A stretch of DNA of 32,862 bases from Candidatus Aenigmatarchaeota archaeon (GTDB lineage: Archaea > Aenigmatarchaeota > Aenigmatarchaeia > QMZP01), in contig JACPNN010000021.1 in NCBI GenBank assembly GCA_016185435.1, positions 64,269-97,130 of the forward strand, written 5' to 3'. Position numbers and translations under genes: made by a program. Within the stretch, counting starts at the first letter, position 1. Each line of letters starts with the position of its first letter. Under the pieces are notes generated by a model. That model did no database searches and was not told where the DNA came from. It worked only from the letters and a program-made list of their open reading frames with translations. This document shows positions 5,711 to 28,944 of the stretch, one piece after another.

Positions 5711-5867
5711 TTACCTTGAGGATTGTGGAGCCTTCACCATCTCCTCAAGATCGGCCAGGTCGAACAGCAGCAGGTTCGGCTCCTTCACCCTCTCCCTGAA
5801 CGATTTCGCAAATATGGCATAGTACTCCTTCCGTGTTCCATTGTTCCACTGGACGAGCTTGGCCTTC
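5698..5867. repeat. 170-bp direct repeat, copy A (3' end of first DUF234 ATPase)
   Basis: This segment matches 7215-7384 in the same orientation with only about six substitutions and no gaps over 170 bp. It covers the last 52 codons of the ATPase gene and about 13 bases beyond the stop. Upstream of the repeat the two genes are strongly diverged, so the identity is local and recent. Confidence 0.9.
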
Positions 5868-7135
5868 TCCCTCAGGCCTGCAAGAAGTTTTCCTGAATCG
5901 ACATTGTCCCGCCACTTGCACTCTACGAGCAGAATATCCTTTGTCTGCTCATTGAGCGAGACGATATCGATTTCAGCTGTTTTCCTTTCGCCTGTTTCCG
6001 TATCCCTGTAAGCGCCCCACCACTTTCCAACATTTGCAGAACCTATGGGGTTGGCTAATCTAACAGCCTCTCTGCAAACAGCCTCAAACTGCCTTCCTAC
6101 GTAAGAATTAAAAGTCTGCCTGAAATTTCTTTCAAATCCCTCAAATAGAAAAGAATCAAGGTCTTTTATGAAAGCGTAAACAAAGCCGAACCAGAATTTG
6201 AAATAATTGTCCTTCAAGGAATAGATGGTATTTCTGCTCTTTTTCTTCGCAGTTATCGGCTTAACCAGTTCTATAAGTTCCAGTCTCTCCAGCGTATTCA
6301 GATATCTCGTCAGGGCTGTCCTTTCAACGCCAAGCGCATTGGAAAGTTCATTCAAAGTGCCCTTTCCTGCAGCTATTTCCTTCAATATGGAGAAATAAAT
6401 TCTCGGCTCCCTTAATTCCTCTTTAAGTATTATTTCTGTCTCCTGATAGAGGAGCGATCCCCTTGTCGCTATTGCTGATCTGGCGTTTTCACATGCTGTT
6501 TTGGTGCCTTCAAACTCAAGGATATACAAAGGTATTCCGCCTGTTATTGAATAGAATTCCACAAGCTTCGCAAACCCTGTGTCTGGGAAAAATTTGACAA
6601 ACTCCCTGAACGGCAGCGGATCAACCTTCCACTGTCCTGTCCTCCTCCCGTATAAGGGAGTTTTTCGTCCAAGAACCTCTGTTTCCATTGAGCCGACGCT
6701 TGAGCCGCACAGGATTATGTGCAAGCCCATCGACTTAAAGTACATATCCCAGTATTTCTGAAGGATTGAGGGTACAGCCTTGTTCGCGTCAACAAGGTAA
6801 GGAAATTCGTCAATAACTAGAGTCAAACCGGCAATTTCCTTCCCCCTGAGGTATTCGGCAATCTGCTTGAACTGGGAAAAGGGGTTTGCCTTGAGTGCAC
6901 TGTCATTGAAGTGCTCTGCAATGTCAGTCGAAAAGGATCCAATAAGCTCTTTTTCCACTTCCTGAGTCGCAAGGAGATATATCGCCTTTTTGTTTTTTAT
7001 AAAATGCTTGATGATTTCTGATTTGCCGACCCTCCTTCTGCCATAAATCACCGTAAGAGGAGCGGGTTTTTTACTCTGGCTCTCGAGAAACTCCAATTCC
7101 TTTTCCCTGTTTATAAATTGTATGAACTTGTTCAT
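5711..7135 (-). CDS. Archaeal ATPase with C-terminal DUF234 nuclease-like domain
   Basis: A 474-residue protein of the archaeal ATPase (PF01637-like) plus DUF234 class. Walker A is YGRRRVGKS at residues 31-39, Walker B LTLVIDEF at 104-111, and a sensor-like LCGSSVG at about 142-148. A winged-helix-like segment follows (LNELSNALGVERTALTRYL). The C-terminal domain carries EIDIVSL and then ILLVECKW, the D...(E)xK pattern of PD-(D/E)xK nuclease folds. Such proteins are abundant in archaea but their role is not settled; defence, mobile-element and DNA-processing roles have been suggested. The last 52 codons are nearly identical in DNA to those of the neighbouring paralogue. The start at 7135 is supported by a TATA box at 7157-7166. 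Confidence 0.9.
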   Translation of the reverse strand: MNKFIQFINREKELEFLESQSKKPAPLTVIYGRRRVGKSEIIKHFIKNKKAIYLLATQEVEKELIGSFSTDIAEHFNDSALKANPFSQFKQIAEYLRGKEIAGLTLVIDEFPYLVDANKAVPSILQKYWDMYFKSMGLHIILCGSSVGSMETEVLGRKTPLYGRRTGQWKVDPLPFREFVKFFPDTGFAKLVEFYSITGGIPLYILEFEGTKTACENARSAIATRGSLLYQETEIILKEELREPRIYFSILKEIAAGKGTLNELSNALGVERTALTRYLNTLERLELIELVKPITAKKKSRNTIYSLKDNYFKFWFGFVYAFIKDLDSFLFEGFERNFRQTFNSYVGRQFEAVCREAVRLANPIGSANVGKWWGAYRDTETGERKTAEIDIVSLNEQTKDILLVECKWRDNVDSGKLLAGLREKAKLVQWNNGTRKEYYAIFAKSFRERVKEPNLLLFDLADLEEMVKAPQSSR

Positions 7136-7156
7136 AATGATTTAATACATACAAAA

Positions 7157-7166
7157 GTATATAAGC
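7157..7166 (-). promoter_or_regulatory. TATA box for the first DUF234 ATPase
   Basis: The minus strand reads GCTTATATAC about 21 bases before the ATG at 7135. No ribosome binding site is obvious, so the transcript is probably leaderless. Confidence 0.55.
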
Positions 7167-7214
7167 TTTAACTCTCCCCACTTCAGATAAGGCAGTATCC
7201 GCACACCCAGTCCT

Positions 7215-7384
7215 CTATATGCTATTTTTCCCTTGAGGATTGTGGAGCCTTCACCATCTCCTCAAGATCGGCCAGGTCGAACAGCAGCAGATTCGGCTCC
7301 TTCATCCTCTCCCTGAACGACTTAGCAAATATGGCATAGTACTCCTTCCGTGTTCCATTGTTCCACTGGACGAGCTTGGCCTTT
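7215..7384. repeat. 170-bp direct repeat, copy B (3' end of second DUF234 ATPase)
   Basis: This is the partner of 5698-5867. One substitution turns the TAA stop of copy A into GAA, so this paralogue runs two residues further and stops at TAG. Most other differences are silent or conservative, for example Val/Met in the SFRERxKEP stretch. Confidence 0.9.
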
Positions 7385-8676
7385 TCTTTCAGCTCTTCCA
7401 ATACCCTCTGCGCATCGACATTGCCTTGCCACTTGCATTCGCAGAAGAGGATTTCCTTTGACCGCTCACTCAGGGCGACAATGTCTATTTCGTAAACATT
7501 CCTGCCTCCTTCATCCCTGAACTTGCCCCACTGCCTGCCTATTTTTTCGAAGAAAAATGGCGTCCCCTCCCTGTTCAGCTTTAACATAAACTCCCTGCAC
7601 ACCTGCTCGAAACTGCGCCCGATAAAAGAGGAAAGATCAGAAGTTATCTTCTCCCTTATCGCAGCGTAGTTCTTTATCTCATATGCGCTCATGTTTCTGT
7701 ATATATATTTGAACCAGAACCTGAAGAAATTGTCTTTCAGAAAATACCTTCCCTTCTTGCTTCTTTCAGGGTTTTTTTCCGTTGCAGGCACATCTTTTGC
7801 CACAATGCCCAGCACCTTGGAAAGGTTTTCGATATACGGCGCAAAAGATGTTTCCTTTATCCCGGCATAATCGCATATCTCTTTCGCGGTGTTCTTCCCG
7901 ATTGCAATGGCAGTTATGATCGAATAATAAGAAGGCACTTCCCTCCCGAATTCCTCTATCAGGATATCCGAAACCTCGTCTTTCAGGGGGGCCAGCTCCC
8001 TCAGCAAAAGGCGGTCTATCGATGACAACGTGTCAGCAATGTTGTAATCGCCTATCAGCGCATAATACATAGGTATGCCGCCGTATATTGAGTACAGTTT
8101 TATTTTCTCTTCAATGCCAGTTATGCCGAAGTCTCCAAGAATGCGTCCTACTGCCTCAAAACCAAAAGGGTCTATGGTCAAAATATTGTGCGCCCTCTTG
8201 AACAAAGGCGCCTTCTGCTCTATGAATATCTTTCTGACCATTCCGACAGATGAGCCGGAAATCAAAAGGAACAGCTTGCCTTTGTGTGCGTCCCATTCCT
8301 TCTGAAGCTCGAAAATAATGTGCGGCTCAATGGACAGGAACCGCTGGAATTCGTCTATGGCTATGACAAGCCTTTTTTCTTTTGATGCATCGAAAAGAAC
8401 TTTCAAGAAGGATGGCCATGTTCCGATTTTGATGTATTCCGGCAGGGAGAGCTCGGAAGATATTATTGATGAGAATTCGGATAGAAGCTCTGAACTCGTT
8501 TTCCTCGGATTCACAAAAAAATAGATCCCCTTAGTCTTGGAAAAGAACTGGTGGATCAGCTCTGTTTTTCCAACGCGGCGCCTTCCCGTTAAGACCATGA
8601 GTATTTTGTGACGCTCAGAGATTTTTCCGGCTGTTTCAAGCTCGTTCAACTCGTTTTCCCTGTTATAGAACTTCAT
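7222..8676 (-). CDS. Archaeal ATPase with C-terminal DUF234 nuclease-like domain, paralogue
   Basis: A 484-residue paralogue of the neighbouring ATPase. Walker A is TGRRRVGKT at residues 30-38, Walker B RLVIAIDEF at 102-110, and SGSSVG follows as a sensor-like motif. The DUF234 part has YEIDIVAL and ILFCECKW, again a nuclease-like D...xCK pattern. The protein outside the last 53 residues resembles the paralogue only moderately, while the last 50 are almost the same, which points to gene conversion or 3'-module exchange. An AAGGTG Shine-Dalgarno sequence lies before the ATG at 8676, with a TATA box about 52 bases upstream, so this transcript probably has a leader of about 25 bases. Confidence 0.9.
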   Translation of the reverse strand: MKFYNRENELNELETAGKISERHKILMVLTGRRRVGKTELIHQFFSKTKGIYFFVNPRKTSSELLSEFSSIISSELSLPEYIKIGTWPSFLKVLFDASKEKRLVIAIDEFQRFLSIEPHIIFELQKEWDAHKGKLFLLISGSSVGMVRKIFIEQKAPLFKRAHNILTIDPFGFEAVGRILGDFGITGIEEKIKLYSIYGGIPMYYALIGDYNIADTLSSIDRLLLRELAPLKDEVSDILIEEFGREVPSYYSIITAIAIGKNTAKEICDYAGIKETSFAPYIENLSKVLGIVAKDVPATEKNPERSKKGRYFLKDNFFRFWFKYIYRNMSAYEIKNYAAIREKITSDLSSFIGRSFEQVCREFMLKLNREGTPFFFEKIGRQWGKFRDEGGRNVYEIDIVALSERSKEILFCECKWQGNVDAQRVLEELKEKAKLVQWNNGTRKEYYAIFAKSFRERMKEPNLLLFDLADLEEMVKAPQSSREK

Positions 8677-8919: not shown

Positions 8920-10929
8920 CTATACCCCAATCTCCACCATCTCAAAGCTCCCCGAGCTGTTCCTCTCGGCCATGGCAATGAAGACGGACTTGGCCTTCTT
9001 ATTGAGGCTGCAGTGCCTGGCCACCTGCTGGATAAGCATGTTTTTTGATTCCTGGCCCGAGCAGAGGAAATGGGTGTTGTCCTGTATAAGCTTGTTTATG
9101 CTTTCCCTGTCAACCGAATCAATCAGGGCCACCTTCAATTTCTTGTCTCCCTTCTTCATATACAATACATTCCCGATCCACTTGGCCTTCCATCCAAATA
9201 AGGAATATGTCTCGAGCACCTCGTCCATGTCCATGGGCCTTACGCCCTCCATTACCGAGAAGTTCTGCCTGAACAGCCTGTATCCATTGTCTGTAAGGAA
9301 ATAGAATGTAAGCCTGTTCTTGCCTATTTTAGCGCCTATAGAGCCTATGAGGCCAGCTCTTTCCAGTCCAGAAGCTCTTCCGGCAAATGTCTTCCCCGAC
9401 ATCCTGATGTCCCTGTAAATCTGGCTTGTGAAGCATCCTGCCCCCGAGCCTATGGACTCTATGACATCCATCGACTTCTGGTCAATGTCCATGTCTTCCA
9501 GGGGAGCATCCTGTGTTTCTGCTTCTTTATCTGTTTCGCCCGTTTCAATTGCCTTCATCCTGCCTCTCATAAAGGACTCAAGAACAGCATCGTTCACGCT
9601 CCCTTTAACAACAGCGACCTCATTGAACCTGACAAGGAAAGAGTCGGTATAAGGCAGTCCCCTGCACAGCATGAAGCCCTGCCCCACAGGCAGCTTCCTC
9701 AGATACTGGCCCTCCTCCTCATAATCAAGGCCAAGCATATTGCTCGCATCCCTTATGTCTGACGCCCTCTGGGAATCCAGCCCCAGGTTCATGTAAATCT
9801 GCGTCGACGTGTTTCCAAGGGCAGGATAGGATACCAGAGAAGGATGCTGGTCTATATAGACTATCCCCATCCCCAACTCCCTTATCTCCCTGAAAATGAG
9901 GTCCATGACAGTCTCAGAGCCAATCTTGACCGACTTCTCCCTGTTAAGGACGTGATGCGCCTCTTCAAGGATAATAACCCCTTTCAGCTTCTCTCTCGAA
10001 TCAGCTGACAGCAGCCAGTCCCGAAGCCACTGGAGCGTGATCTCTATGAAGAATGTCTTGTCATTCGTGTCAAGCGCGTCAAGCTCCAGCACCGTCACTC
10101 TCCCCTCCTTGAAGAATCCGGAAACGTCCACTCCCTTCTCGCAGTCGAACACCTTTCCCATCTCCTTGAAGCAGAGGGATTCCAGCGGCCTTGTAGCCGT
10201 AGAAAGCCAGTTCCTCTCCCTTGGCGGCAATCTCTCTTCCCCATATCCTGAAAGCCAGTCCTTTATGTCCTTAAGCCTCGGGGGCTGCTTCACTTCATAA
10301 ACGGCTTCAAGGGCCTTCATTATTATATGCCTCCCTCCCCCAAGCAGCCAGTAGGCATGGTCGAATATGCTCGCAAACTCCTTTATCCACTGGGACAGGT
10401 GTATCCCCGGCGGCGGTATCAGCGGATTGAAGCTGAAAGGGACTGTATCCCTCCCTATCGTAAAGACATCCACCCTTTCCTTGATTTCTGTCGCAAGCAA
10501 TTCCCTGTAATTCCTTTTGGAAAAGTCAAATATCAGGACAGGGATATTCCTTTTCGCAAGCTGCATTATCAGCCAGTATGACAGATTGGTCTTCCCATAG
10601 CCGGAAGACCCGAAAATGCCTATATGTGTCAGGAAGGAATTCTTACTCAGGCCTATAGGATACATCTCCCTTCTGCCGTACATGACCTTGCCGACCTCTA
10701 TGTCGCCTATAGACGCTGTCTCGGCAGGCATGGGCTCCAGAAGCACGCTTCCCTCCTCGACAGATGATGAGGCAGCCCTTATCACGTCCACAAGCTCAAG
10801 CAGCCTTTGCCTCGTGTCCTCATCCCCCACCAGATAAGCCCTCGAAAGCCTCGCAGCCCCGTCTCTGCCAATAATCGGGATCAGCTTCTTTATCTCCCCT
10901 GAGATCAGCTTTTCTTTATAGTCAGGCAT
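8920..10929 (-). CDS. HerA/FtsK-superfamily ATPase (DUF87) with winged-helix tail
   Basis: A 669-residue ATPase of the HerA/VirB4-like group. Walker A is GSSGYGKTN at residues 107-115, with the family sequence FDFSKRNY just after (134-141). Walker B is VIILEEAHH at 318-326, followed by the sensor region YIDQHPSLVS at 358-367. Residues about 485-555 look like a winged helix (SQIYRDIRMSGKTFAGRASG), ending in a DNG..LF strand. A further C-terminal domain covers 575-669. Such ATPases pump or thread DNA or protein as hexameric rings. No nurA or mre11/rad50 gene is adjacent, so this is not the classical HerA-NurA end-resection operon. The upstream gene encodes a coiled-coil protein 16 bases away, with a GGAGG between them, so the two are probably co-translated partners. 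Confidence 0.88.
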   Translation of the reverse strand: MPDYKEKLISGEIKKLIPIIGRDGAARLSRAYLVGDEDTRQRLLELVDVIRAASSSVEEGSVLLEPMPAETASIGDIEVGKVMYGRREMYPIGLSKNSFLTHIGIFGSSGYGKTNLSYWLIMQLAKRNIPVLIFDFSKRNYRELLATEIKERVDVFTIGRDTVPFSFNPLIPPPGIHLSQWIKEFASIFDHAYWLLGGGRHIIMKALEAVYEVKQPPRLKDIKDWLSGYGEERLPPRERNWLSTATRPLESLCFKEMGKVFDCEKGVDVSGFFKEGRVTVLELDALDTNDKTFFIEITLQWLRDWLLSADSREKLKGVIILEEAHHVLNREKSVKIGSETVMDLIFREIRELGMGIVYIDQHPSLVSYPALGNTSTQIYMNLGLDSQRASDIRDASNMLGLDYEEEGQYLRKLPVGQGFMLCRGLPYTDSFLVRFNEVAVVKGSVNDAVLESFMRGRMKAIETGETDKEAETQDAPLEDMDIDQKSMDVIESIGSGAGCFTSQIYRDIRMSGKTFAGRASGLERAGLIGSIGAKIGKNRLTFYFLTDNGYRLFRQNFSVMEGVRPMDMDEVLETYSLFGWKAKWIGNVLYMKKGDKKLKVALIDSVDRESINKLIQDNTHFLCSGQESKNMLIQQVARHCSLNKKAKSVFIAMAERNSSGSFEMVEIGV

Positions 10930-12648: not shown

Positions 12649-13422
12649 CTACAGCTTCGAGTCTATAGCTGACTTGAAGGCGCTGAATGGCTGGGCCCCG
12701 ACAATGGTCGTGCAGTCTGATGTCCCTTTGCAGATCTTGAAGCTCGGAGTGCCTGAAACGCCTGACTTACTTCCGGTGTCAAAGTCGCTCTGCACCTCTG
12801 AAAGGTATTTCTTGCTGGTGTAGCATGTGTCGAACTGCTGCGAGTTCAGTCCAATCTCCTTGGCCCATTTCTTGTACGACTCGTCGCTCAGTGACTGCTG
12901 GTTCGCAAAGATCTTGTCATGGAACTCCCAGAACTTGTTCTGTTCCTTCGCGCAAGCCGCTGCAAGCGCTGCGGGTTCTGCCTGCGGATGGAAGCTCAGC
13001 GGGAAATCCATGTAGTACAGCTTTGCCTTGCCTGTCTGGATGTAATTCTTGTCTATGTCGGGCAATGTCGTCGAAAAGAAGCGGCCGCAGAACGGGCATT
13101 CGAAGTCGCTGAACTCCACTATTGTCACGGGCGCGTTTGGCTGGCCATTCAAGGGCTGTCCCTCAAGGCTGAAGCCCAAATCTGTGCTCCCCGGCTGGGA
13201 AGGCACATCAGGCTGTTGCGGCGCTGCCTGCGGCTGGGTTGTTGCCTGAGCCTGTGCAGTTCCGCCTTTTCCTGTCGCTATGCCGCCGATCGTTGAAGAC
13301 AGCATCAGGACAGAGACAAGCAGTCCAAGGCTCACAAAAGCCAGCACAACTGTTGTATAGACCCATGGAGACCTTTCGGATTTGGATTGTGTGTCAGTCT
13401 TAGGTTCAATGGTTTCTGTCAT
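12649..13422 (-). CDS. Membrane-anchored DsbA-like thiol oxidoreductase
   Basis: A 257-residue protein of the DsbA/thioredoxin_4 family. A cytoplasmic tail of about 20 residues is followed by a membrane anchor (21-45), then a Gln/Ala/Pro-rich linker (52-80) and the catalytic domain. The active site is CPFC at residues 109-112 within FSDFECPFCGRF, and the cis-proline loop is SGTPSF with Pro at 226. Extra cysteines occur at 157, 200, 231 and 237. It should oxidise or shuffle disulfides outside the membrane. A GGAGGGG Shine-Dalgarno sequence precedes the ATG at 13422, with a TATTTAAAT TATA box further up near 13477-13486. Likely clients are the nearby cysteine-rich protein or the cupredoxin. Confidence 0.92.
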   Translation of the reverse strand: MTETIEPKTDTQSKSERSPWVYTTVVLAFVSLGLLVSVLMLSSTIGGIATGKGGTAQAQATTQPQAAPQQPDVPSQPGSTDLGFSLEGQPLNGQPNAPVTIVEFSDFECPFCGRFFSTTLPDIDKNYIQTGKAKLYYMDFPLSFHPQAEPAALAAACAKEQNKFWEFHDKIFANQQSLSDESYKKWAKEIGLNSQQFDTCYTSKKYLSEVQSDFDTGSKSGVSGTPSFKICKGTSDCTTIVGAQPFSAFKSAIDSKL

Positions 13423-13506: not shown

Positions 13507-13977
13507 TTAACTTTCCTTCACAACCAGCTTGCCCGCCATTGTTCCGTGGCCTGAGCCGCAGAAGACGGAACAGAAGAACCTGAACTCGCCTGCCTTGTCT
13601 GCAACAAATTCCACCTGGACTGTCTCTCCTTTCTTGAAGGCCTTGTTGACGTTGAAGTCAGGCAGGGCAAAGCCGTGGCCTGAGCCTATGCCGTCATCAA
13701 GCGAGGTTATGGTTATCCTCACCCTGTCGCCCTTGACGGCCTCTAGCGTGTCAGGCTCAAAGGCCCAGTTCTTCGCTGTAACCTTGAATTCCCTCAACGG
13801 GGCGAGATCAGCTGTCGGCGCGGATGTAGGAGAAGGCGTAACAGTAGGCGAAGGTGTGGATTCAGGAGATGCTGGCAACTGTGTCGGCTCTTGGGTTGGA
13901 GACGGCTGGCTGCTCTGTGTTTGTATGCAGCCTGCTACCAAAAGCACTAAAGATATAAGGAGTATGGAGGCTTTCAT
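13507..13977 (-). CDS. CuA-type cupredoxin lipoprotein (COX2-like domain)
   Basis: A 156-residue lipoprotein. Residues 1-17 form a lipoprotein signal with lipobox LVAGC, Cys17 being the likely lipidated residue. A Pro/Ser/Thr linker covers 22-55. The cupredoxin domain (60-156) keeps all the CuA ligands in order: His101 (SGHGF), Cys136, Cys140, His144 and Met147, with exact C-x3-C-x3-H-x2-M spacing as in cytochrome oxidase subunit II and nitrous oxide reductase. No oxidase subunits or membrane helices of COX2 are present, so it may be a free electron carrier or copper carrier. The ATG at 13977 was preferred over one at 14025 because the signal peptide begins there and a TATA box lies at 14004-14013. 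Confidence 0.88.
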   Translation of the reverse strand: MKASILLISLVLLVAGCIQTQSSQPSPTQEPTQLPASPESTPSPTVTPSPTSAPTADLAPLREFKVTAKNWAFEPDTLEAVKGDRVRITITSLDDGIGSGHGFALPDFNVNKAFKKGETVQVEFVADKAGEFRFFCSVFCGSGHGTMAGKLVVKES

Positions 13978-14003
13978 GATTGAAAGTTGTTTGATTGTAT
14001 GAG

Positions 14004-14038
14004 AATATAAAGCTTCTTGCACCAAAATGCTTTTTAAT
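14004..14038. promoter_or_regulatory. Divergent promoters for the cupredoxin and GGDEF genes
   Basis: CTTTATATTC on the minus strand (14004-14013) lies about 27 bases before the cupredoxin ATG. CTTTTTAATT on the plus strand (14030-14038) lies 25 bases before the GGDEF gene ATG at 14063. The two core promoters are only about 16 bases apart. Confidence 0.5.
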
Positions 14039-14062
14039 TGTTCTTTATTAGTAGTTATTTAT

Positions 14063-14701
14063 ATGAAAAAATATTACCCTCTCAGGGATCCAGCGGTAGT
14101 AAGGCTTATGAATGAAAATCCCGATTTTGCCAGATACCACATGAGAGTGAGGAAACAGGCCAGAAATGCGAGAATGTATAAAAGAGAGGCAAGAACTGAC
14201 TCTGTGACCGGTCTGGGGAACAAAAGAGGGTATGATGAGCAGCTTGAGAGGGAGTTCTCGAGATCAAAAAGGCATAAATATCCTTTGACCCTTGGCTTTG
14301 GAGACATAAGGGGCTTTGAGGAAATCAATAACATGTCCAGCCATGGAGAAGGTGACAGGGTCCTCAACTGCATTGCAAGGAGACTAGAGGAAGCGGTAAG
14401 GGAGGAGGACTATGTGGCAAGGGTTTATGGCGACGAATTTGGCCTCATTTGCGTCGATGCGTCATCTTCGTCAGCAAAAAGCCTTATCAGAAGAATTATA
14501 CAGCATACCTGCAAAGTCAAGGTAAAGGATGGCGCTGAAATTGAAATGCCAATAAGCATGCGTTTTGCATTGGTCACGTATCCGGACGTCCCTGCAAAGA
14601 CCTGGGAAAACCTCCATGAAACAGCTGACAAAGCCCTGACCAATGTGAGAGACAAAGGGTGCAGCATATATGTTGTCTCTAAAGAGCTTTTTATCCCCTG
14701 A
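14063..14701 (+). CDS. GGDEF-domain protein, diguanylate-cyclase-like, signature YGDEF
   Basis: A 212-residue soluble protein: a short basic helical leader (1-44) and one GGDEF domain (45-205). The entry motif TDSVTGLGNKRGYDE is at 45-59. Aligned by eye to PleD, the metal ligand is Asp81 (DIRGFEEIN, 81-89), the guanine-contacting residues are Asn89 and Asp98, and the signature is YGDEF at 122-126, with Asp124/Glu125 kept but the first Gly replaced by Tyr. The product-inhibition I-site RxxD is intact as R113-x-x-D116, exactly five residues before the signature. The C-terminal ADKALTNVRDKG (188-199) matches the phosphate-binding helix. GGDEF domains are rare in archaea. The start at 14063 fits a TATA box at 14030-14038. 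It ends overlapping the convergent NAD kinase by 11 bases. Confidence 0.88.
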   Translation: MKKYYPLRDPAVVRLMNENPDFARYHMRVRKQARNARMYKREARTDSVTGLGNKRGYDEQLEREFSRSKRHKYPLTLGFGDIRGFEEINNMSSHGEGDRVLNCIARRLEEAVREEDYVARVYGDEFGLICVDASSSSAKSLIRRIIQHTCKVKVKDGAEIEMPISMRFALVTYPDVPAKTWENLHETADKALTNVRDKGCSIYVVSKELFIP

Positions 14702-15392
14702 ACAAGACAAACCTCGCCACATCCTTAGCCTGCCTGATCTCCACCCTGTCCCCTGATGCCAGATTGACAAAATCCTTCTGATTGTCCGCAAGAACCAATG
14801 CCTTCTCCCTTTTGATTTCTATCGCAAGTATATCATCTTTGTCCAGCTCTACAGGATTTGGCCTGGGTTTGGTGTTGTTGAAGGCTGCACGAAGGCCTGT
14901 TTCAAAAGGCTTACATCCGACAGCCATATAATAAGCATGGCTCCCGAATGGCGTGGCCGCAACGATGCCGTCCCCTATCACATTTTTGTACAGGGGCTTG
15001 CCGTCAAGGGAAACATCGAACCTGATGGCCTTTCTCGGATCAGCATTATGGATCTGGACCTCATTCAGGCCTGAAAGCTTCTTCCCCTTCACTTCAGCCA
15101 GAGCTTTGGCATATTCCCTTATTGAGCATTGCCCTTTCGACAGGCTCTCAAGCACCTTATCCAGTTCTGCCAGCCTGCAGGAAGGGTAGTGGGTGCCAGG
15201 AATGCTCTTGCGGAAAACCAGTTTCGGCACCCCCGGGAAGGCGGCCTCTGATGAAAGCACAGTCCCATCGCCCCCATAGATTATCACAAAATCAGGCTTC
15301 CCGCCATCCAGGACAAATCCTGCTTTCCGGGCCTCCTTCGCTATCTTCTCCCTTTCCTGCCCGAAATATGTCTGTATTGCAACCTTCATCAT
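14691..15392 (-). CDS. nadK: NAD kinase
   Basis: A 233-residue ATP-NAD kinase, somewhat short for the family. It phosphorylates NAD to NADP. The nucleotide motif GGDGT is at residues 40-44 and the substrate-binding NE at 110-111 (LSGLNEVQIH). Downstream are the family segments GDGIVAATPFGSHAYYMAVG (with the conserved TP.GS) and a C-terminal beta region ending RFVLFRG. An in-frame second ATG follows the first, so the true start may be 15389; GGTGA lies a few bases upstream. The 3' end overlaps the convergent GGDEF gene. Confidence 0.9.
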   Translation of the reverse strand: MMKVAIQTYFGQEREKIAKEARKAGFVLDGGKPDFVIIYGGDGTVLSSEAAFPGVPKLVFRKSIPGTHYPSCRLAELDKVLESLSKGQCSIREYAKALAEVKGKKLSGLNEVQIHNADPRKAIRFDVSLDGKPLYKNVIGDGIVAATPFGSHAYYMAVGCKPFETGLRAAFNNTKPRPNPVELDKDDILAIEIKREKALVLADNQKDFVNLASGDRVEIRQAKDVARFVLFRG

Positions 15393-15756: not shown

Positions 15757-15780
15757 TCAGCATCCTTGATTATTGTAAAT

Positions 15781-16308
15781 ATGAAAGCGGAAGTGGCTGT
15801 GCCTGAGGGCATAGACGTGAAGCTCGAGAAAAACGTTTTCACAGTCAAAGGAAAAAAGGGCGAGCTGAAGCAGGAAGTCAGGCTCGAGAAGATTAAGATA
15901 AGCGTGGAAAATGGAAAAATAACAGTGGAAAGCCTTTCTGAAAGGAGGAAAGAGAAGGCACTGGTCGGCACATACGCTTCCCTCCTGAAAAGCATGTGCA
16001 TCGGGGTCACAACAGGCTACCAGGCCAGGCTGAAAGTTGTGTATTCCCATTTTCCCATCAAGGTTTCTGTCGAAGGCAGGAAGGTATTGGTGCAAAACTT
16101 CCTCGGCAAGAAGTCCAGCAGGCAGGCAGAGCTTTTCGGGAACACGGAAGTGAAGGTCTCCAAGGACGAAATAATAGTCACCGGAATTGACAAGAAGGAA
16201 GTGGGCCAGACAGCGGCAAATATCGAGAGATCGACAAAGATCTCAGGGTTCGACAGAAGGGTTTTCCAGGACGGGATCTACCTGACAGAGGCTGCGAGGG
16301 GTTGCTGA
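15781..16308 (+). CDS. rpl6: Large-subunit ribosomal protein uL6, archaeal type
   Basis: A 175-residue uL6. The N-terminus (KAEVAVPEGIDVKLE) and the phrase FTVKGKKGELKQEV are characteristic, as are the C-terminal copy of the fold (VSKDEIIVTGIDKKEVGQTAANIE) and its last strand (GFDRRVFQDGIYLT). The protein binds 23S rRNA near the sarcin-ricin loop. The ATG at 15781 was chosen over an upstream non-ATG start because of the TATA box at 15747-15756. In most archaea this gene sits inside the spc operon next to eL32; here eL32 follows only after four unrelated genes. Confidence 0.95.
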   Translation: MKAEVAVPEGIDVKLEKNVFTVKGKKGELKQEVRLEKIKISVENGKITVESLSERRKEKALVGTYASLLKSMCIGVTTGYQARLKVVYSHFPIKVSVEGRKVLVQNFLGKKSSRQAELFGNTEVKVSKDEIIVTGIDKKEVGQTAANIERSTKISGFDRRVFQDGIYLTEAARGC

Positions 16309-19360: not shown

Positions 19361-21559
19361 ATGGCAGAAGACCTGGCGGCAGTGGTCCAGCGGCTGATGG
19401 CCAAGACAGACCATATCAGGAACATGGGCATTGTGGCCCATATCGATCACGGCAAGACGACCCTGTCTGACTCCTTGCTTGCAGGGGCTGGAATGATTTC
19501 AGAGGAGCATGCCGGAAAACAGCTTGCCATGGATTTCGACCCTCAGGAGCAGGAGAGGGGAATCACGATTTATGCGGCCAATGCAAGCATGGTCCACAAT
19601 ATCGGCGGCGAGGATTACCTCATAAACCTGATCGACACCCCGGGCCACGTTGACTTTGGGGGCGATGTCACAAGGGCTATGAGGGCAGTCGACGGAGTGA
19701 TTGTCGTCGTGGACGCCGTCGAAAGGATCATGCCCCAGACAGAGACTGTCCTGCGGCAGGCGCTGAGGGAAAGGGTCAGGCCTGTGCTCTACATCAACAA
19801 GGTGGACAGGCTCATAAAGGAGCTTAAGCTGACCCCTGACCAGATCCTTGATAGGTTCAAGGACATAATAAGGGAAGTGAACGCCCTTATCCAGAAATAT
19901 GTCGAGAGCGAATACAAGACCAAATGGCTTGTGAGTGTGGACGATGGTTCTGTCGCCTTTGGCTCGGCCCTCAAGAAATGGGCTGTAAGCATCCCCCACA
20001 TCCAGAAGACAGGGATGACAATGAAAGAGATAATACAGATGACGGAGGCTGGTAAAGAAGGAGAGCTCTCAAAAAAGATGCCCCTCGCTCATGTCCTGCT
20101 TGACATGGTAGTCGCCCATCTTCCCAACCCGAGGCAGGCAGCCGTATACAGGATACCCAAGATATGGCCGGGAGAGAAGGAATCAGAGGCAGGCATGTCA
20201 ATGGTAAACTGCGACAGCAGCGCCAGGCTGGCAGCCATAGTGACAAAGGTCTATCCGGATCCGCATGCAGGCTATGTCGCGACCCTGAGGATATTTGCCG
20301 GAAGGATATCGAGGGGAATGGACGTCTATGTTCTGGGAATCAACAAGATCGAGAAGGTGCAGCAGGTTTCGATTTACAGGGGAGCAAAAAGGGTCCAGAT
20401 GGAGGAGATAATAGCGGGAAATATAGCAGGCGTGGTGGGCCTGAAGGACGCCTATTCAGGAGCTACAGTATGCATGCCGGACTCCATCATAACTGCATTC
20501 GAGGAGATAAAGCACGTGTTCGAGCCTGTGGTCACAAAGGCCATAGAGCCAAAGGACCCGACGCAGCTGGCAAGGCTTATAGAATTCCTGAAGAAGACAG
20601 CAAGAGAAGATCCCACATTAAGGGTGAGCATAAATGAGGACACAGGGGAATATCTGGTATCAGGTCTGGGGGAGCTTCACATAGAGGCCAAGGTCGAGAG
20701 AAAGCTGAAGGATGCAGGGATAAGCGTCTCTGTCAGCCAGCCCATAGTCATCTACAATGAGAGCATCAAGACATTGAGCGAGCCTGTTGAAGGCAAAAGC
20801 CCCAACAAGCACAACAGGTTCTACATCGTTGCTGAGCCCCTCGAGCAGGCCGTCTACCAGGCCATGGTCAATGGAGAGATCAATGACATGGAAATCAAGA
20901 AGAAGGATGTTGCCCTGCAGGAAAAGCTTGCCAACCTGGGCTTCGACAGGGACGAGTCAAAGAACATCAGGATGATATACAACAAATGCATGTTCATAGA
21001 AGCGACACGTGGCGTGACAGCCATACTCGAAATCATGGAGATGTGCAAGCAGGCATTCAGGGAAGCCATAGATGCAGGGCCCCTGGCCCGGGAGCCTGTA
21101 AGCGGGATAAAGGTGAAGCTGGTTGATGCAAAGCTCCACGAGGATGCGATACACAGAGGGCCCGCGCAGGTCATACCTGCCATGAGAAGGGCCATAAGGA
21201 ATGCAATGGTCCAGGCCAAGCCGTACATCGTCGAGCCCAAGCAGATCATCAGGATCGATGTCCCTACCGAGCAGGTAGGAGGCGCGATAAAGGAAGTGAA
21301 CAACAGAAGGGGCCAGATCCTTGACATGAAGGAGGAAAGAGGATTGACCATAATACAGGCAAAACTCCCTGTTGCAGAAATGTTCGGCTTCAATTCTTCC
21401 CTGAAATCAGCGACAGGCGGTCTGGGCTTCTACAGCCTGATAGATATCCTTTACGAGCCCCTTCCAAAGGAGCTTGAGCCCAAGGTTGTAGGACAGATCA
21501 GGGAGAGGAAGGGGATAAAGGAAGTGATAGAAGGCGAGGGGGAGGAAGGGGAAGGATAA
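19361..21559 (+). CDS. fusA: Translation elongation factor 2 (archaeal EF-2)
   Basis: A 732-residue GTPase that drives ribosomal translocation. The P-loop AHIDHGKT is at residues 26-33, DTPGH at 92-96 and NKVD at 146-149. Domain IV carries the diphthamide loop DAIHRGPAQVIP, with the target histidine at codon 598. The length is normal for archaeal EF-2. An acidic Glu/Gly tail (EGEGEEGEG) ends the protein. No partner ribosomal genes of the str operon are adjacent. Confidence 0.97.
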   Translation: MAEDLAAVVQRLMAKTDHIRNMGIVAHIDHGKTTLSDSLLAGAGMISEEHAGKQLAMDFDPQEQERGITIYAANASMVHNIGGEDYLINLIDTPGHVDFGGDVTRAMRAVDGVIVVVDAVERIMPQTETVLRQALRERVRPVLYINKVDRLIKELKLTPDQILDRFKDIIREVNALIQKYVESEYKTKWLVSVDDGSVAFGSALKKWAVSIPHIQKTGMTMKEIIQMTEAGKEGELSKKMPLAHVLLDMVVAHLPNPRQAAVYRIPKIWPGEKESEAGMSMVNCDSSARLAAIVTKVYPDPHAGYVATLRIFAGRISRGMDVYVLGINKIEKVQQVSIYRGAKRVQMEEIIAGNIAGVVGLKDAYSGATVCMPDSIITAFEEIKHVFEPVVTKAIEPKDPTQLARLIEFLKKTAREDPTLRVSINEDTGEYLVSGLGELHIEAKVERKLKDAGISVSVSQPIVIYNESIKTLSEPVEGKSPNKHNRFYIVAEPLEQAVYQAMVNGEINDMEIKKKDVALQEKLANLGFDRDESKNIRMIYNKCMFIEATRGVTAILEIMEMCKQAFREAIDAGPLAREPVSGIKVKLVDAKLHEDAIHRGPAQVIPAMRRAIRNAMVQAKPYIVEPKQIIRIDVPTEQVGGAIKEVNNRRGQILDMKEERGLTIIQAKLPVAEMFGFNSSLKSATGGLGFYSLIDILYEPLPKELEPKVVGQIRERKGIKEVIEGEGEEGEG

Positions 21560-24080: not shown

Positions 24081-24099
24081 ATTGCGCACAACTTGTGAT

Positions 24100-25095
24100 A
24101 TGGCAGGCTTTGAAAAATCAATCGATGGCAAGAAGGTGCTTGTAACAGGCGGCACAGGAAGCTTTGGCCATCAGGTTACCAGCATGCTTCTTGAGCACGG
24201 GCCTGAGGAAATAATAATCTTTTCCCGAGACGAAAACAAGCAGCACCATATGCGTTCCGAGTACAACAGCCCTAAGCTCAAGTTTGTAATCGGCGATGTG
24301 AGGGATTATGAGAGGGTGAAGGAGGTCACAAAGAACGTTGATATTATTTTCCATGCCGCTGCCCTGAAGCACGTCCCTTATTGCGAATTCCACCCTTATG
24401 AGGCCTTCAAGACCAATGTGGTCGGGGCCCATAATGTGAAGCGCGCTGCGATTGAGAACGACGTTCAGAGACTGATAGCGATTTCGACTGACAAGGCAGT
24501 AAAGCCGGTAAATGCCATGGGCATGAGCAAGGCCATGCAGGAAAAGCTTTTGCTGAACAACAACGGAAAAGAAAGCAATACAGTCATATCCTGCGTAAGA
24601 TACGGCAATGTCATAGGCTCGCGGGGCTCGGTCATGCCGCTCTTCGAGAGCAAGGTGAAGGCAGGCCAGCCGCTGCCCATCACCAGCGCAAAAATGACCA
24701 GGTTTATGCTCACCCTCCCCCAGGCCATAAATCTTGTATTCTATGCCCTGCAGAACGCGAATGGCGGGGAGATTTTCGTGAAAAAGGCTCCGGCATGCAG
24801 GATGGTTGATTTTGCGCAGGCGTATGCCGAGGCCATTACAGGAAAAGCGGGTTACCCTCTGGAGGTTGTCGGCGTCAGGCCCGGGGAGAAGATACATGAA
24901 GTGCTGGTGGCAAGGGAAGAGATGCACCGCGCAAAAGAGGCTGATGATTATTTTATAATAGAGCCTTACAAATCATTCTATACGCCTGTCAGCGAGAACA
25001 CCGATAATGCCGAAGAATACGGCTCAAATACCACAGTGCAAATGCCGAAGCAGGATATTCTGAAGCTGCTGAAGGAAACTAAATGGATTGACTGA
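24100..25095 (+). CDS. capE: UDP-N-acetylglucosamine 4,6-dehydratase, CapE/FlaA1-like
   Basis: A 331-residue enzyme. The NAD(P)-binding motif is GGTGSFG at residues 17-23. The catalytic strip is ISTDKAVKPVNAMGMSK (128-144), with Met140 where ordinary SDRs have Tyr, the hallmark of the CapE/PseB/FlaA1 type. GVRPGEKIHEVLV near residue 265 matches the C-terminal half of the family. In the UDP-L-FucNAc pathway this enzyme makes the 4-keto-6-deoxy intermediate by inverting C5. The next gene follows after a 36-base gap. The symbol is by family resemblance; PseB-type activity is an alternative. Confidence 0.82.
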   Translation: MAGFEKSIDGKKVLVTGGTGSFGHQVTSMLLEHGPEEIIIFSRDENKQHHMRSEYNSPKLKFVIGDVRDYERVKEVTKNVDIIFHAAALKHVPYCEFHPYEAFKTNVVGAHNVKRAAIENDVQRLIAISTDKAVKPVNAMGMSKAMQEKLLLNNNGKESNTVISCVRYGNVIGSRGSVMPLFESKVKAGQPLPITSAKMTRFMLTLPQAINLVFYALQNANGGEIFVKKAPACRMVDFAQAYAEAITGKAGYPLEVVGVRPGEKIHEVLVAREEMHRAKEADDYFIIEPYKSFYTPVSENTDNAEEYGSNTTVQMPKQDILKLLKETKWID

Positions 25096-25131
25096 TGTGC
25101 TTTTCAATCCTTCTTGCCAATATTATCCAAT

Positions 25132-25992
25132 ATGTTGATAATTACTGGCGCAGCAGGCCTGCTAGCTAAAGCCATTCTGCATGCATTTCCTCAGGCTACT
25201 GGATCATATCATTCAGGGAAGCCTATTGTTTCCAATAAGCTGATTAGAGCCGACATCACGACTATAGAAGGCCTCATAAAGATAATGGAACTTAAACCTT
25301 CAGCAATCATAAACTGTGCGGCAATGACAAGCGTGGACGACTGCGAAAAGCAAAAAGAAATGGCAAGGAAGGTCAATTCTGACGCTGTTTCGGCCCTTTC
25401 AAGAGAATGCCTGAAAAGCGGGATAAAATTTGTTCATATCTCCACAGACTTCGTCTTTGACGGCTCAAGGGGCATGTACAGGGAGGATGATAAAGCTTTG
25501 CCTGTCAACCATTACGGCCTGACAAAGCTGATGGGCGAAAAGTTTCTAGGAGAAAATGACCTTTTGGTGAGGACATCCTTTTTCGGGTGGAAAAACAGCA
25601 GGAAGGAGAATTTTGGAGGGTGGATTGTAAATTCTTTGAGAAACGGAAAAGAGATAAAAGCCTTCACAAACAGCTATTTCACTCCCATATATGTCGGCTA
25701 TCTCGCAAGGATTCTTGTAATTATGATCGAAAAAAATCTTTCAGGCACTTACCATGTCGCTGGAAAGGAGAGGATAAGCAAATATGACTTTGCAATCAGA
25801 GCAGCAGATTTCTTTGGCCTTGACAGATCCCTGATCAAAGAAGGCGACATAAAGAAATGGGAGACAGAAGCCAGAAGGCCAGTTGACACATCCCTCGACT
25901 GCTCCAGGATACAAAAAACAGGAATAAGTCTGCCATCTCTTGAGGAAAGCCTCAGGCTGATGAAGGAAGAAGAGCACCTTTACAAAAGCTGA
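25132..25992 (+). CDS. RmlD/CapF-like SDR reductase
   Basis: A 286-residue extended SDR. The cofactor motif is TGAAGLLA at residues 5-12, the NCAAMTSVDDCE stretch at 61-72 and the catalytic YGLTK at 128-132 are typical of dTDP-4-dehydrorhamnose reductase (RmlD) and of the SDR half of CapF. After the CapE-like enzyme it would reduce the C4 ketone of the UDP-sugar. It lacks the C-terminal cupin that bifunctional CapF carries; a separate cupin gene lies at 27143-27541. The start at 25132 is preferred over an upstream TTG at 25114. Confidence 0.82.
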   Translation: MLIITGAAGLLAKAILHAFPQATGSYHSGKPIVSNKLIRADITTIEGLIKIMELKPSAIINCAAMTSVDDCEKQKEMARKVNSDAVSALSRECLKSGIKFVHISTDFVFDGSRGMYREDDKALPVNHYGLTKLMGEKFLGENDLLVRTSFFGWKNSRKENFGGWIVNSLRNGKEIKAFTNSYFTPIYVGYLARILVIMIEKNLSGTYHVAGKERISKYDFAIRAADFFGLDRSLIKEGDIKKWETEARRPVDTSLDCSRIQKTGISLPSLEESLRLMKEEEHLYKS

Positions 25993-25998
25993 AAGCTT

Positions 25999-27081
25999 TC
26001 AGAAGATAGGAATATCAAGGTTGCCTCTCAGCGCATTGGCCACTTTTACTGAAGCCCTGCCATCCCCGAATTCATAATCCCATTGCGGTTTTGTCTTCAG
26101 CGCAGCATTGACACATGCGGTTATGTTTTCCGCGTCTATGCCCGAGACTATGTTTGAGCCCAGCTCGACTGTCTCAGGCCTTTCAGTGGCCTGTCTCACG
26201 CTTACACACGGTATTTTGAACCAGGCCCCTTCCTCCTGGACTGTCCCCGAATCAGTAAGCAGGCAGGCAGCATGTTTTTCAAGCTTTGTGAAATCAAAGA
26301 AGCCCAAAGGCTCGATGACTCTGACCCCTTCAGGAATTTTGGCTGAAAGCCTGCTTTTGGCCCTTGGATGCATCGGGTAGATTACGGGCATTTTGAATTT
26401 CCTGCAAGCCATGCCTAAGCCCTTCAATATTTCCCTGAATCTCCCCGGAAAATCCACATTCTCTGTCCTGTGGACTGTGCACAGCATGTATTGTTTTTCT
26501 TTAAGATCGAGCCTCCCCAAAATACTGCTTTTATCTATGCTCTTTTTCCACTTTTCAAGAACGTCTACAATTGGATTTCCTGTGACAAATATCCTGGCAG
26601 GATGGATGCCTTCCCTGATTAAAAGGCGCCTTGAGTGCTCTGTATACGGAAAAAAGATGGAGCTGAGGTGGTCTATAACCCTTCTGTTCTTTTCCTCAGG
26701 CATGTCCCAGTTGAAGCTTCGCATCCCGGATTCCCAATGCGCAACCTTGACGCCATGGTATGCCGCGGGAATAGCAGCCAGGCCGCTGTTGGTATCTCCT
26801 AGGATGAGCAGCACATCAGGCCTTTCTTTGAGAATGACATCCTCTGACTTCTGGATTATTTGCGCAACCTGTTTTCCAAAGGCCGCTTCCCTGATTCCGA
26901 AATCATAATCAGGCTTCCTGATTCCAAGCTCCCTGAAAAAGAGGCTGTTAAGGTTGTCAGAGAAATTTTGGGCTGTATTGACCATTATGTGCCTGAAGCC
27001 CTTCGAATCCAGCTCCCTGAAGAGCTCGCTCAGCCTGATGATTTCCGGCCTGGTGCCGAAGACTGTCATTACGGTGCGCAT
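25999..27081 (-). CDS. UDP-N-acetylglucosamine 2-epimerase (WecB/CapG-like)
   Basis: A 360-residue UDP-GlcNAc 2-epimerase. FGTRPEIIR near the N-terminus, the HWESGMRSFNWDMPEEKNR block (residues about 116-134), VTGNPIVDV, LCTVHRTENVD, then TDSGTVQEEGAWFKIPCVSVRQATERPE are all family signatures. In the FucNAc pathway the CapG type epimerises C2 to give UDP-L-FucNAc; WecB makes UDP-ManNAc. Convergent with the SDR reductase (6-base gap) and divergent from the cupin gene. The start at 27081 was chosen over one at 27183, because it begins at the conserved domain and has a TATA box 20 bases upstream. Confidence 0.88.
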   Translation of the reverse strand: MRTVMTVFGTRPEIIRLSELFRELDSKGFRHIMVNTAQNFSDNLNSLFFRELGIRKPDYDFGIREAAFGKQVAQIIQKSEDVILKERPDVLLILGDTNSGLAAIPAAYHGVKVAHWESGMRSFNWDMPEEKNRRVIDHLSSIFFPYTEHSRRLLIREGIHPARIFVTGNPIVDVLEKWKKSIDKSSILGRLDLKEKQYMLCTVHRTENVDFPGRFREILKGLGMACRKFKMPVIYPMHPRAKSRLSAKIPEGVRVIEPLGFFDFTKLEKHAACLLTDSGTVQEEGAWFKIPCVSVRQATERPETVELGSNIVSGIDAENITACVNAALKTKPQWDYEFGDGRASVKVANALRGNLDIPIF

Positions 27082-27100
27082 ACATATAATTATGCCTCGG

Positions 27101-27120
27101 GTATAAAAGGCCTTTTTAAT
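27101..27120. promoter_or_regulatory. Back-to-back TATA boxes, 2-epimerase and cupin
   Basis: The 20 bases GTATAAAAGGCCTTTTTAAT are nearly palindromic. Read on the minus strand, CCTTTTATAC (27101-27110) lies 20 bases before the 2-epimerase ATG; on the plus strand, CCTTTTTAAT (27111-27120) lies 22 bases before the cupin ATG at 27143. Confidence 0.65.
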
Positions 27121-27142
27121 CCTGCCCTGCACATCTTTCAGT

Positions 27143-27541
27143 ATGATAAAGGGAGTCGAGGTGCGCAGTCTGGAGAAGCACATAAACGAAAAGGGCTTTG
27201 TCTATGAGATACTGCGCCCGGAGCATGTGAATGCAGCATTCGGCCAGATATACATATCGACTGCCAAGGCCGGCTTTGTGAAGGCAAACCATTACCACAC
27301 AAGGAAAAAGGAATGGTTTGCCGCCATAAAAGGCGAAGCGCTTGTCCTGCTGAAGGATATGGAAACCGGTGAAGAGGCGCAAATATCCGTAAACGGCAGC
27401 GAGCCCAAGGTATTGTTCATCCCCCCAAATGTGGCCCACGCCTTCAAGAATACCGGCAAAGGGATGCTATATCTTCTTGTCTACATAAGCGAAGGCTTTA
27501 ACCCTGCAGATGCTGACACGCATCCTGTCGAATTGCTATAG
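27143..27541 (+). CDS. Stand-alone cupin resembling the C-terminal domain of CapF
   Basis: A 132-residue single-domain cupin. The metal/substrate loop is KANHYHTRKKEWF (residues about 50-62), then GEALVLLKD and IPPNVAHAFKN, ending FNPADADTHPVELL. This resembles the cupin half of bifunctional CapF (GNHWHHTKNEKF, D.PDTY.LEV), which epimerises C3 of the UDP-sugar before reduction. It could also be a WxcM/FdtA-type ketoisomerase. With the separate SDR reductase it would reconstitute CapF in two genes. The flippase gene follows 41 bases later on the same strand. Confidence 0.78.
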   Translation: MIKGVEVRSLEKHINEKGFVYEILRPEHVNAAFGQIYISTAKAGFVKANHYHTRKKEWFAAIKGEALVLLKDMETGEEAQISVNGSEPKVLFIPPNVAHAFKNTGKGMLYLLVYISEGFNPADADTHPVELL

Positions 27542-27582
27542 GCTGCGCTGCAGCAAAAAAGGATTGCAAGCGATGATAAATT

Positions 27583-28944
27583 ATGTCACTGAAAAACAGG
27601 GTAATAACAGGCTTTGCATGGTTCTCCTTTAGCGACATATCAATAACAGCAATGAATTTCCTGGCTGCAATACTGACTATCCAGGCATTGGGCACCTTTG
27701 AGTTCGGCATCCTCACCCTTTCCTTATCCGCCTTTGCCATCCTCTCACTTTTCCTGGACATGGGAATAAGCACATTCCTTGTATCTGATATTGCCCAGGA
27801 AATGGGAAAGGGCAAGTATTCCAGGGCAAAGTCGCTTCTCCAGAGCTACAGGAAGCTCGGATTATTTACCGGAATAGCAGCGTCTGCAATAGCTTTTTTA
27901 TCCTCTTTTTACCTGAGGTCGCTTTACAATGAGCTTGTGGGCAACATGATGGCAGCAATCTCTGTTTTCCTGCTGCTCAATTCCATCAAAAACATATTCA
28001 CCGTGACTTTCCATGGCCTGCAGGACTTCAAAAGCGTTGGAATGATAAGCGTATATGAGATGTTCTTCAGGCTGGTCTTTGTCATCATATTCCTTGTCTT
28101 CCTGAATAAGGGGATTGTCTTTGTAATTGCATCATACAGCATAGCTCTTTTGCTCTCCATTCTCCTTATGCGGGGACAATATAAGCGACATATGGCGCAA
28201 TTCTCAAAAATCCAGGCTTCAGAGAAAGGCCTTTTTGCCAAATATGTCAGGAGCCATGGAAAATGGGTCATTCTGTCCTTCCCTTTGAAAAGGACAGGAG
28301 AGCAGATACATTACTGGATCACAGAATTCTTCCTTGGGGTAAATGCGGTCGCAATACTCAATGTCGCCATGCGATTTTACAGCCTGCTCTCAATTTCATT
28401 CCAGTCGCTTGAAGGCATACTGACACCGATAGTATCGGAGAAAATAGGAAAGAGCATAAACAGCGCAAGATTTATACTTGCAAGAAACCTCAAATACGCC
28501 TTCTGGGCATCTATAGTTATAATGCTGGCTTCTGTTTCCCTTTCAGAAACGGCTGTAAGGCTGTTATTCCCTCCAGCCTACCTGAAATCAGTCCCATTAT
28601 TCAATTTGCTGGCAATAACCCTGCTTTTCGCGCCTTTTTCGCTTTTCCTGAGAACATTTTTCACTGTCACGAAAAATCAGAAATATCAGTTTTATGTATT
28701 CATGCTGGACCTGCCTCTGCTGATATTTTTCGAAGTGGTTTTAGTCAAATATTTCGGCCTGATAGGAATCCCCCTTTCCCTTATAGCAAATGGCATGACC
28801 AGTTTGCTGATAAGGTATTACTTCCTGAGATTTTTCAGGCATAGGATAAAAATAAGCCTATCTGAACTCTGCAAAATAGATGATTACGACAGGAAGCTTC
28901 TGAAATCGGCAAAAAGGAATGTGAGGATCAGATTTGGATTTTGA
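27583..28944 (+). CDS. Polysaccharide flippase, Wzx-like (MOP superfamily)
   Basis: A 453-residue protein with about 12-14 membrane segments and the N-terminal pattern of polysaccharide-export flippases (FAWFSFSDISITAMNF, then IQALGTFEFGILTLS). Such proteins flip lipid-linked oligosaccharides across the cytoplasmic membrane. Preceded by the cupin gene and likely co-transcribed with it. The C-terminal 30 residues are basic and cytoplasmic. It completes a sugar-synthesis plus export locus, consistent with S-layer glycosylation or a capsule. Confidence 0.88.
   Translation: MSLKNRVITGFAWFSFSDISITAMNFLAAILTIQALGTFEFGILTLSLSAFAILSLFLDMGISTFLVSDIAQEMGKGKYSRAKSLLQSYRKLGLFTGIAASAIAFLSSFYLRSLYNELVGNMMAAISVFLLLNSIKNIFTVTFHGLQDFKSVGMISVYEMFFRLVFVIIFLVFLNKGIVFVIASYSIALLLSILLMRGQYKRHMAQFSKIQASEKGLFAKYVRSHGKWVILSFPLKRTGEQIHYWITEFFLGVNAVAILNVAMRFYSLLSISFQSLEGILTPIVSEKIGKSINSARFILARNLKYAFWASIVIMLASVSLSETAVRLLFPPAYLKSVPLFNLLAITLLFAPFSLFLRTFFTVTKNQKYQFYVFMLDLPLLIFFEVVLVKYFGLIGIPLSLIANGMTSLLIRYYFLRFFRHRIKISLSELCKIDDYDRKLLKSAKRNVRIRFGF

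Follow-up and report, generated by a model that had tools for sequence, protein, structure and literature searches.

C-di-GMP is regarded as a bacterial signal and the GGDEF domain is overwhelmingly bacterial. The presence of a GGDEF gene in the assembled genome of a Candidatus Aenigmatarchaeota archaeon (GCA_016185435.1) raises the question of whether the gene belongs to the archaeon at all and, if it does, whether its product is still likely to act as a diguanylate cyclase. The gene lies within the 32,862-nucleotide stretch analyzed here (the window, numbered from its first letter) of contig JACPNN010000021.1, which is 97 kb long.

Contamination has been suspected in earlier cases of archaeal GGDEF genes (PMC5847659), and their confirmation within archaeal contigs has been called for (PMC10086821). 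A 2021 report notes more than 300 BLAST hits to archaeal GGDEF proteins, many of them in DPANN and Asgard archaea, and c-di-GMP undetected in two model archaea (PMC8646023); another finds that MAGs of ultra-small bacteria and archaea contain genes for diguanylate cyclases (PMC9938205). In the passages concerned both sources give counts only, for a like kind of gene from what is probably the same broad organism group; the chromosomal slot, the residue-level conservation and the partner searches are added here.

A GGDEF gene on an archaeal contig

The features of the locus and the two anchors of its contig are as follows.

13507-14025, minus strand: cupredoxin (CuA-like) lipoprotein-type gene, divergent (PF13473, COX2; NosZ and CoxB C-terminal matches)
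14030-14039, plus strand: TATA-like box CTTTTTAATT, about 25-30 bases 5' of ATG 14063 (read from the sequence)
14063-14701, plus strand: GGDEF-domain protein (PF00990, TIGR00254, PDB diguanylate cyclases)
14063-14191, plus strand: predicted N-terminal helical lead-in, residues 1-43 (outside the Pfam match; low-confidence model)
14691-15392, minus strand: NAD kinase-like gene, convergent (PF20143; NF002255 at 63 bits, under cut-off)
15766-16308, plus strand: archaeal ribosomal protein uL6, contig anchor (TIGR03653, 217.9 bits, over cut-off)
19361-21559, plus strand: archaeal elongation factor aEF-2, contig anchor (TIGR00490, 1006.6 bits, over the equivalog cut-off)

The open frame at 14063-14701 encodes 212 amino acids with one GGDEF domain and no other domain found. 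Residues 44-199 match PF00990 at 102.2 bits (E 3e-29, cut-off 23.8 bits) and the protein scores 100.2 bits against TIGR00254 (cut-off 37.4), so that both curated profile cut-offs for membership of the GGDEF family are passed. Comparison with the PDB matched 47 distinct sequences, chiefly named diguanylate cyclases or GGDEF proteins, with TpbB (7a7e) as the best; profile and PDB matches this large are far beyond chance. The program-made frame starts at 14027, and because that start precedes and spans the AT-rich box CTTTTTAATT, ATG 14063 is the better start. The box may fit a leaderless archaeal transcript. Single-sequence AlphaFold predicts helices 10-18 and 20-44 in the lead-in with low confidence, the model as a whole (mean pLDDT 42.9) being too poor for judging the geometry of Tyr122. 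The lead-in (14063-14191) also carries a short (D/N)P-x-(V/F) motif 5' of the domain, as do four relatives (L005, L012, L013 and L029); seen in different families of the phylum, this motif may be due to chance.

Bacterial contamination, or recent import from bacteria, is what the bacterial predominance of the domain and the doubts over earlier archaeal cases (PMC5847659) would lead one to suspect. The contig, however, bears aEF-2 and the archaeal form of uL6, on which the bacterial L6 model reaches 94 bits, under its own cut-off, and the source genome is 95% complete with a contamination estimate of 0.78%. In GC content and codon use this gene falls inside the range of the neighbouring genes, AGA and AGG making up 22 of its 23 arginine codons. 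A scan of genome contigs returned no close bacterial match, the one bacterial relative being 23% identical; plasmid and phage matches are only about 25-35% identical, and a search of viral contigs with the window protein gave none. Contamination itself is very unlikely given the two archaeal anchors, the low contamination estimate and the host-like GC and codons, and the wider suspicion of contamination or recent import is largely refuted already, to the point of being highly improbable. The initial annotation had described a GGDEF-domain protein in an archaeon and had argued that the gene is no contaminant; the two family profiles and the archaeal contig bear out the former, and aEF-2, archaeal L6 and the matching codon use the latter.

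The immediate neighbours are a convergent NAD kinase-like gene, which shares 11 bases with the GGDEF gene, and a divergent cupredoxin gene with a CuA-like C-terminus (FFCSVFCGSGHGTMAG), itself adjoining a DsbA/thioredoxin-like protein (12649-13422). When the NAD kinase neighbourhood was compared within the family, no neighbours in common were found, and the comparison therefore gives no clue to how the gene arrived at the window locus. In bacteria, exopolysaccharide production is a classic outcome of c-di-GMP signalling. Polysaccharide genes (24082-28944; Polysacc_synt_2, UDP-GlcNAc 2-epimerase and flippase-like) are present at a distance of about 10 kb, a purely positional observation. The window further contains a tandem pair of archaeal ATPase_2/DUF234 proteins (5711-8676), a third ATPase (AAA_14/DUF4143; 716-2008) and a large HerA/CedD-like ATPase (8920-10929; CedD model 71 bits, well under cut-off).

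Active-site residues of the window copy

Residues were compared across 29 proteins, that is, the window protein and 28 relatives from its phylum, leaving out a sub-threshold match, L030 (genome G113), which was rejected as a GGDEF protein (PF00990 at 21 bits, sub-cut-off) and by eye resembles a class III nucleotidyl cyclase. The sites of interest are the following.

14303-14305, plus strand: Asp81, metal ligand (PleD Asp327 equivalent), Asp in 29/29
14327-14329, plus strand: Asn89, guanine contact (PleD Asn335 equivalent), Asn in 29/29
14354-14356, plus strand: Asp98, guanine contact (PleD Asp344 equivalent), Asp in 28/29
14399-14410, plus strand: RxxD inhibitory site R113-E-E-D116 (alignment)
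14426-14440, plus strand: signature YGDEF, residues 122-126, first position Gly in 26/28 relatives
14648-14662, plus strand: C-terminal phosphate-contact segment R196-D-K-G-C200 (alignment)

The metal ligands and guanine contacts (D81, D124, N89 and D98) are all present, and so are R113 and D116 of the RxxD site, which is common in cyclases without being obligatory. The GG(D/E)EF signature of active cyclases is broken by Tyr122, which replaces the first glycine. At the equivalent of PleD Lys442 (position 196) the window protein has a conservative Arg where 27 of the 29 have Lys, and at the equivalent of Arg446 (position 200), usually Arg or Lys, it has Cys. Two glycines are lost as well, position 93 being Ser (Gly in 27 of 28 relatives) and position 169 Ala (Gly in all 28). 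Of the 18 positions that count as near-invariant (conservation in at least 85% of relatives), four differ in the window protein (S93, Y122, A169 and R196), the highest count among the 29, and 12 homologues differ at none. In the Hypr (cGAMP-making) variant of the domain, Ser replaces the second guanine-contact Asp; since Asp98 is kept, a variant of this type is disfavoured. The residue numbering first given for D81, N89, D98, D124-E125 and R113/D116 matches the alignment exactly and the YGDEF reading (Y122-G-D124-E125-F126) is upheld, but the accompanying statement that almost all key residues are kept is too optimistic, positions 196, 200, 93 and 169 being altered too.

Relatives across the phylum

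Of the 156 phylum genomes (roughly 0.4-1.9 Mb in size), 30 gave GGDEF matches, 29 of them over cut-off and one doubtful. The view that c-di-GMP signalling is rare in archaea, from which the initial annotation set out, stands for model archaea but fails in this phylum, since the domain occurs in about a fifth of its genomes. Whole-alignment identity between the window protein and its relatives is about 19-28%, with local BLAST identity reaching up to 43% over 100 residues, and despite this low overall identity the signature Glu125 is present in 29/29, as are D81 and N89. RxxD is intact in most relatives, and most have a canonical GG(D/E)EF. The search profile that yielded the relatives favours the catalytic residues and so inflates their apparent conservation; genes of the slot described below were also located through pyrG, which lessens this bias in part only. 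The protein tree with bacterial references is star-like, with 27 of 38 inner branches open, and the grouping of the window protein with L022 and L025 is weak (89/76) and was kept out of the evidence.

Some variation among the relatives may be recorded here. L006 and L007 (genomes G024 and G027) have a longer N-terminal region, a canonical RYGGEEF and PxxA in place of RxxD, and L009, L020, L021, L023 and L024 have two to three additional residues in the signature hairpin (e.g. REGGGADEF or RYGGDKGDEF). Weak Cas10 matches of one relative are taken to reflect the related palm fold, and the window protein had no match in an anti-phage library.

A chromosomal slot between pyrG and hef

In the family to which the window genome belongs, the GGDEF gene lies directly 3' of pyrG (CTP synthase), on a common strand, in eight genomes, and is divergent from pyrG in a ninth. 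On the side opposite pyrG it is flanked by a Hef/XPF nuclease gene, in constant relative orientation, at seven loci, which include one whose contig ends before pyrG (G122) and one from another family within the same taxonomic order (G107). The Hef helicase half and TFIIB are close by in several of these loci and mark their contigs as archaeal chromosomes. The gap between pyrG and GGDEF is roughly 30-65 bases on one strand in most slot loci, which is why the two genes are probably co-transcribed there. As an example of the arrangement, L042 (24-12085) presents TFIIB, Hef helicase, pyrG, GGDEF and Hef/XPF nuclease, followed by two cysteine-rich proteins, of which one is an exported-looking protein of about 600 amino acids with a C-terminal hydrophobic segment and the other is very large; the same slot is seen in L046, L048, L049, L054, L055, L060, L062 and L066. 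Hef is split in the slot loci into a helicase gene and a nuclease gene.

Five sister genomes (G125, G129, G134, G133 and G119) have the slot without GGDEF, pyrG abutting the nuclease gene, and a maximum-sensitivity search of these five loci found no half-degraded GGDEF. This distribution is consistent with an ancient gene passed down at a fixed position and dropped on several occasions, repeated insertion at a single site being the less likely explanation. GGDEF genes elsewhere in the phylum have neighbours in common within their own families, and the overall pattern suggests that this archaeal phylum has had the GGDEF family for a long time. In the window genome, pyrG is on contig 14, where large exported-type proteins come between it and the nuclease gene and a GGDEF gene is absent; the window copy sits instead between the cupredoxin and NAD kinase genes, an arrangement absent among relatives, and may have moved there from the slot or have been acquired separately.

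Partners of c-di-GMP in the genome and the phylum

The window gene is the sole GGDEF gene of its 95%-complete genome, and profile searches of that genome for EAL, PilZ, HD_5 (HD-GYP) and MshEN gave no match, although control genomes gave matches for all four; the search for EAL, PilZ and HD_5 partners that the initial annotation had proposed thus came back empty. A search for the c-di-GMP-I riboswitch gave no match, nor did its controls, and the blank is not taken as evidence of absence. Across the 156 phylum genomes EAL was found in none, PilZ in two (both without a GGDEF over cut-off), MshEN in two (one over cut-off) and HD_5 in eight, with a GYP-type signature visible by eye in some only. 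Proteins with an HD-GYP-like signature (e.g. HHELYDGSGYP) occur in a few phylum genomes (L033, L034 and L037); G143 has two such proteins in a row, and neither G143 nor G137 has a GGDEF match.

What the window protein may do

TpbB, WspR and PleD (PF00990, TIGR00254) resemble the window protein in the domain, the metal ligands, the guanine contacts, the signature Glu and the RxxD site. They differ in having GG(D/E)EF instead of YGDEF, while in the window protein the equivalents of Lys442 and Arg446 are changed; the window protein is, moreover, archaeal and without any sensor, receiver or membrane domain found, in a genome where no hydrolase or receptor was found. VCA0965 (AGDEF) and ECA3270 (SGDEF), like the window protein, have the first signature residue replaced and GDEF kept, the replacement being small in both and Tyr in the window protein. 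When this position of VCA0965 from V. cholerae was substituted with each of the 19 other residues, activity was confined to A, G, H and M, which leaves Tyr outside the active set, and the authors warn that first-position tolerance varies between enzymes, so that Tyr122 need not inactivate the window copy (PMC3974145). In receptors with a degenerate GGDEF, the degenerate active site and the RxxD site are both possible binding sites for c-di-GMP (PMC3974145). PopA, CdgA and the ATPase-type GGDEF of YybT share with the window protein a degenerate signature; unlike them, it keeps GDEF in a lone domain, and its binding is putative.

The initial annotation had offered an active cyclase, a GTP- or nucleotide-binding sensor and a c-di-GMP receptor as options. 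On sequence alone, which does not separate these, three readings of the window copy are ranked here. The likeliest, to which we give an even chance, is that it is a native chromosomal archaeal GGDEF protein descended from diguanylate cyclases, now a weak or silent cyclase that binds GTP and/or c-di-GMP. The four departures among 18 near-invariant positions, Cys200 and the VCA0965 saturation result all point to this, while the presence of every metal ligand and of the signature Glu counts against it, as does, for any c-di-GMP role, a genome without recognised receptor or hydrolase. An active diguanylate cyclase comes second and is possible, if rather doubtful: c-di-GMP would be made in the archaeon under RxxD product inhibition, and would act through receptors of unrecognised families or on a partner organism. 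Intact metal ligands, Asn89, Asp98, Glu125 and RxxD, together with the canonical GG(D/E)EF of most relatives and the working enzymes with a non-Gly first residue (VCA0965 and ECA3270; PMC3974145), argue for activity; the failure of Tyr in VCA0965, the altered Lys442 and Arg446 equivalents, the loss of two near-invariant glycines and a genome in which no EAL, HD_5, PilZ or MshEN partner was found argue against it. That the gene is a decaying relic, moved or acquired, bereft of its partners and drifting without function, ranks third and seems unlikely. It would agree with the highest count of consensus departures among the 29 and with a pyrG slot empty of GGDEF in the window genome itself and in several sister genomes, but the frame is open and full-length, codon use is host-like, all polar active-site residues and RxxD are retained, and a TATA-like box lies upstream.

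Under the preferred reading of a weak or silent, nucleotide-binding cyclase, the GGDEF family of the phylum would mostly convert two GTP into c-di-GMP (or a close relative), and this dinucleotide would be read out by receptors of yet unrecognised kinds. In the window copy, Tyr122 placed over the nucleotide, the changed Lys/Arg phosphate contacts and the two lost glycines would weaken or silence catalysis. The protein could still bind nucleotide, whether GTP at its active site, c-di-GMP through the intact RxxD site, or both, and would act as a nucleotide-responsive regulator and not as a strong producer.

Implications for the phylum

A literature search of partial coverage found no publication on a YGDEF signature and no description of the pyrG-hef slot. 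Taken alone the window gene is of modest interest, and the phylum-wide pattern is of more. Tentatively, and from sequence comparison, the phylum may hold an inherited and mostly catalytically intact branch of signalling by c-di-GMP (or a related dinucleotide), anchored between pyrG and hef in one family, without EAL and almost without PilZ or MshEN, whose archaeal receptors and hydrolases are yet to be found and of which the window copy would be a derived nucleotide sensor. The occurrence of a catalytically conserved GGDEF gene in one slot beside the archaeal hef and near TFIIB, in many genera, settles the doubt over contamination for this phylum, and the slot and the kept catalytic residues together make it testable whether c-di-GMP is produced in these archaea and by what it is sensed.
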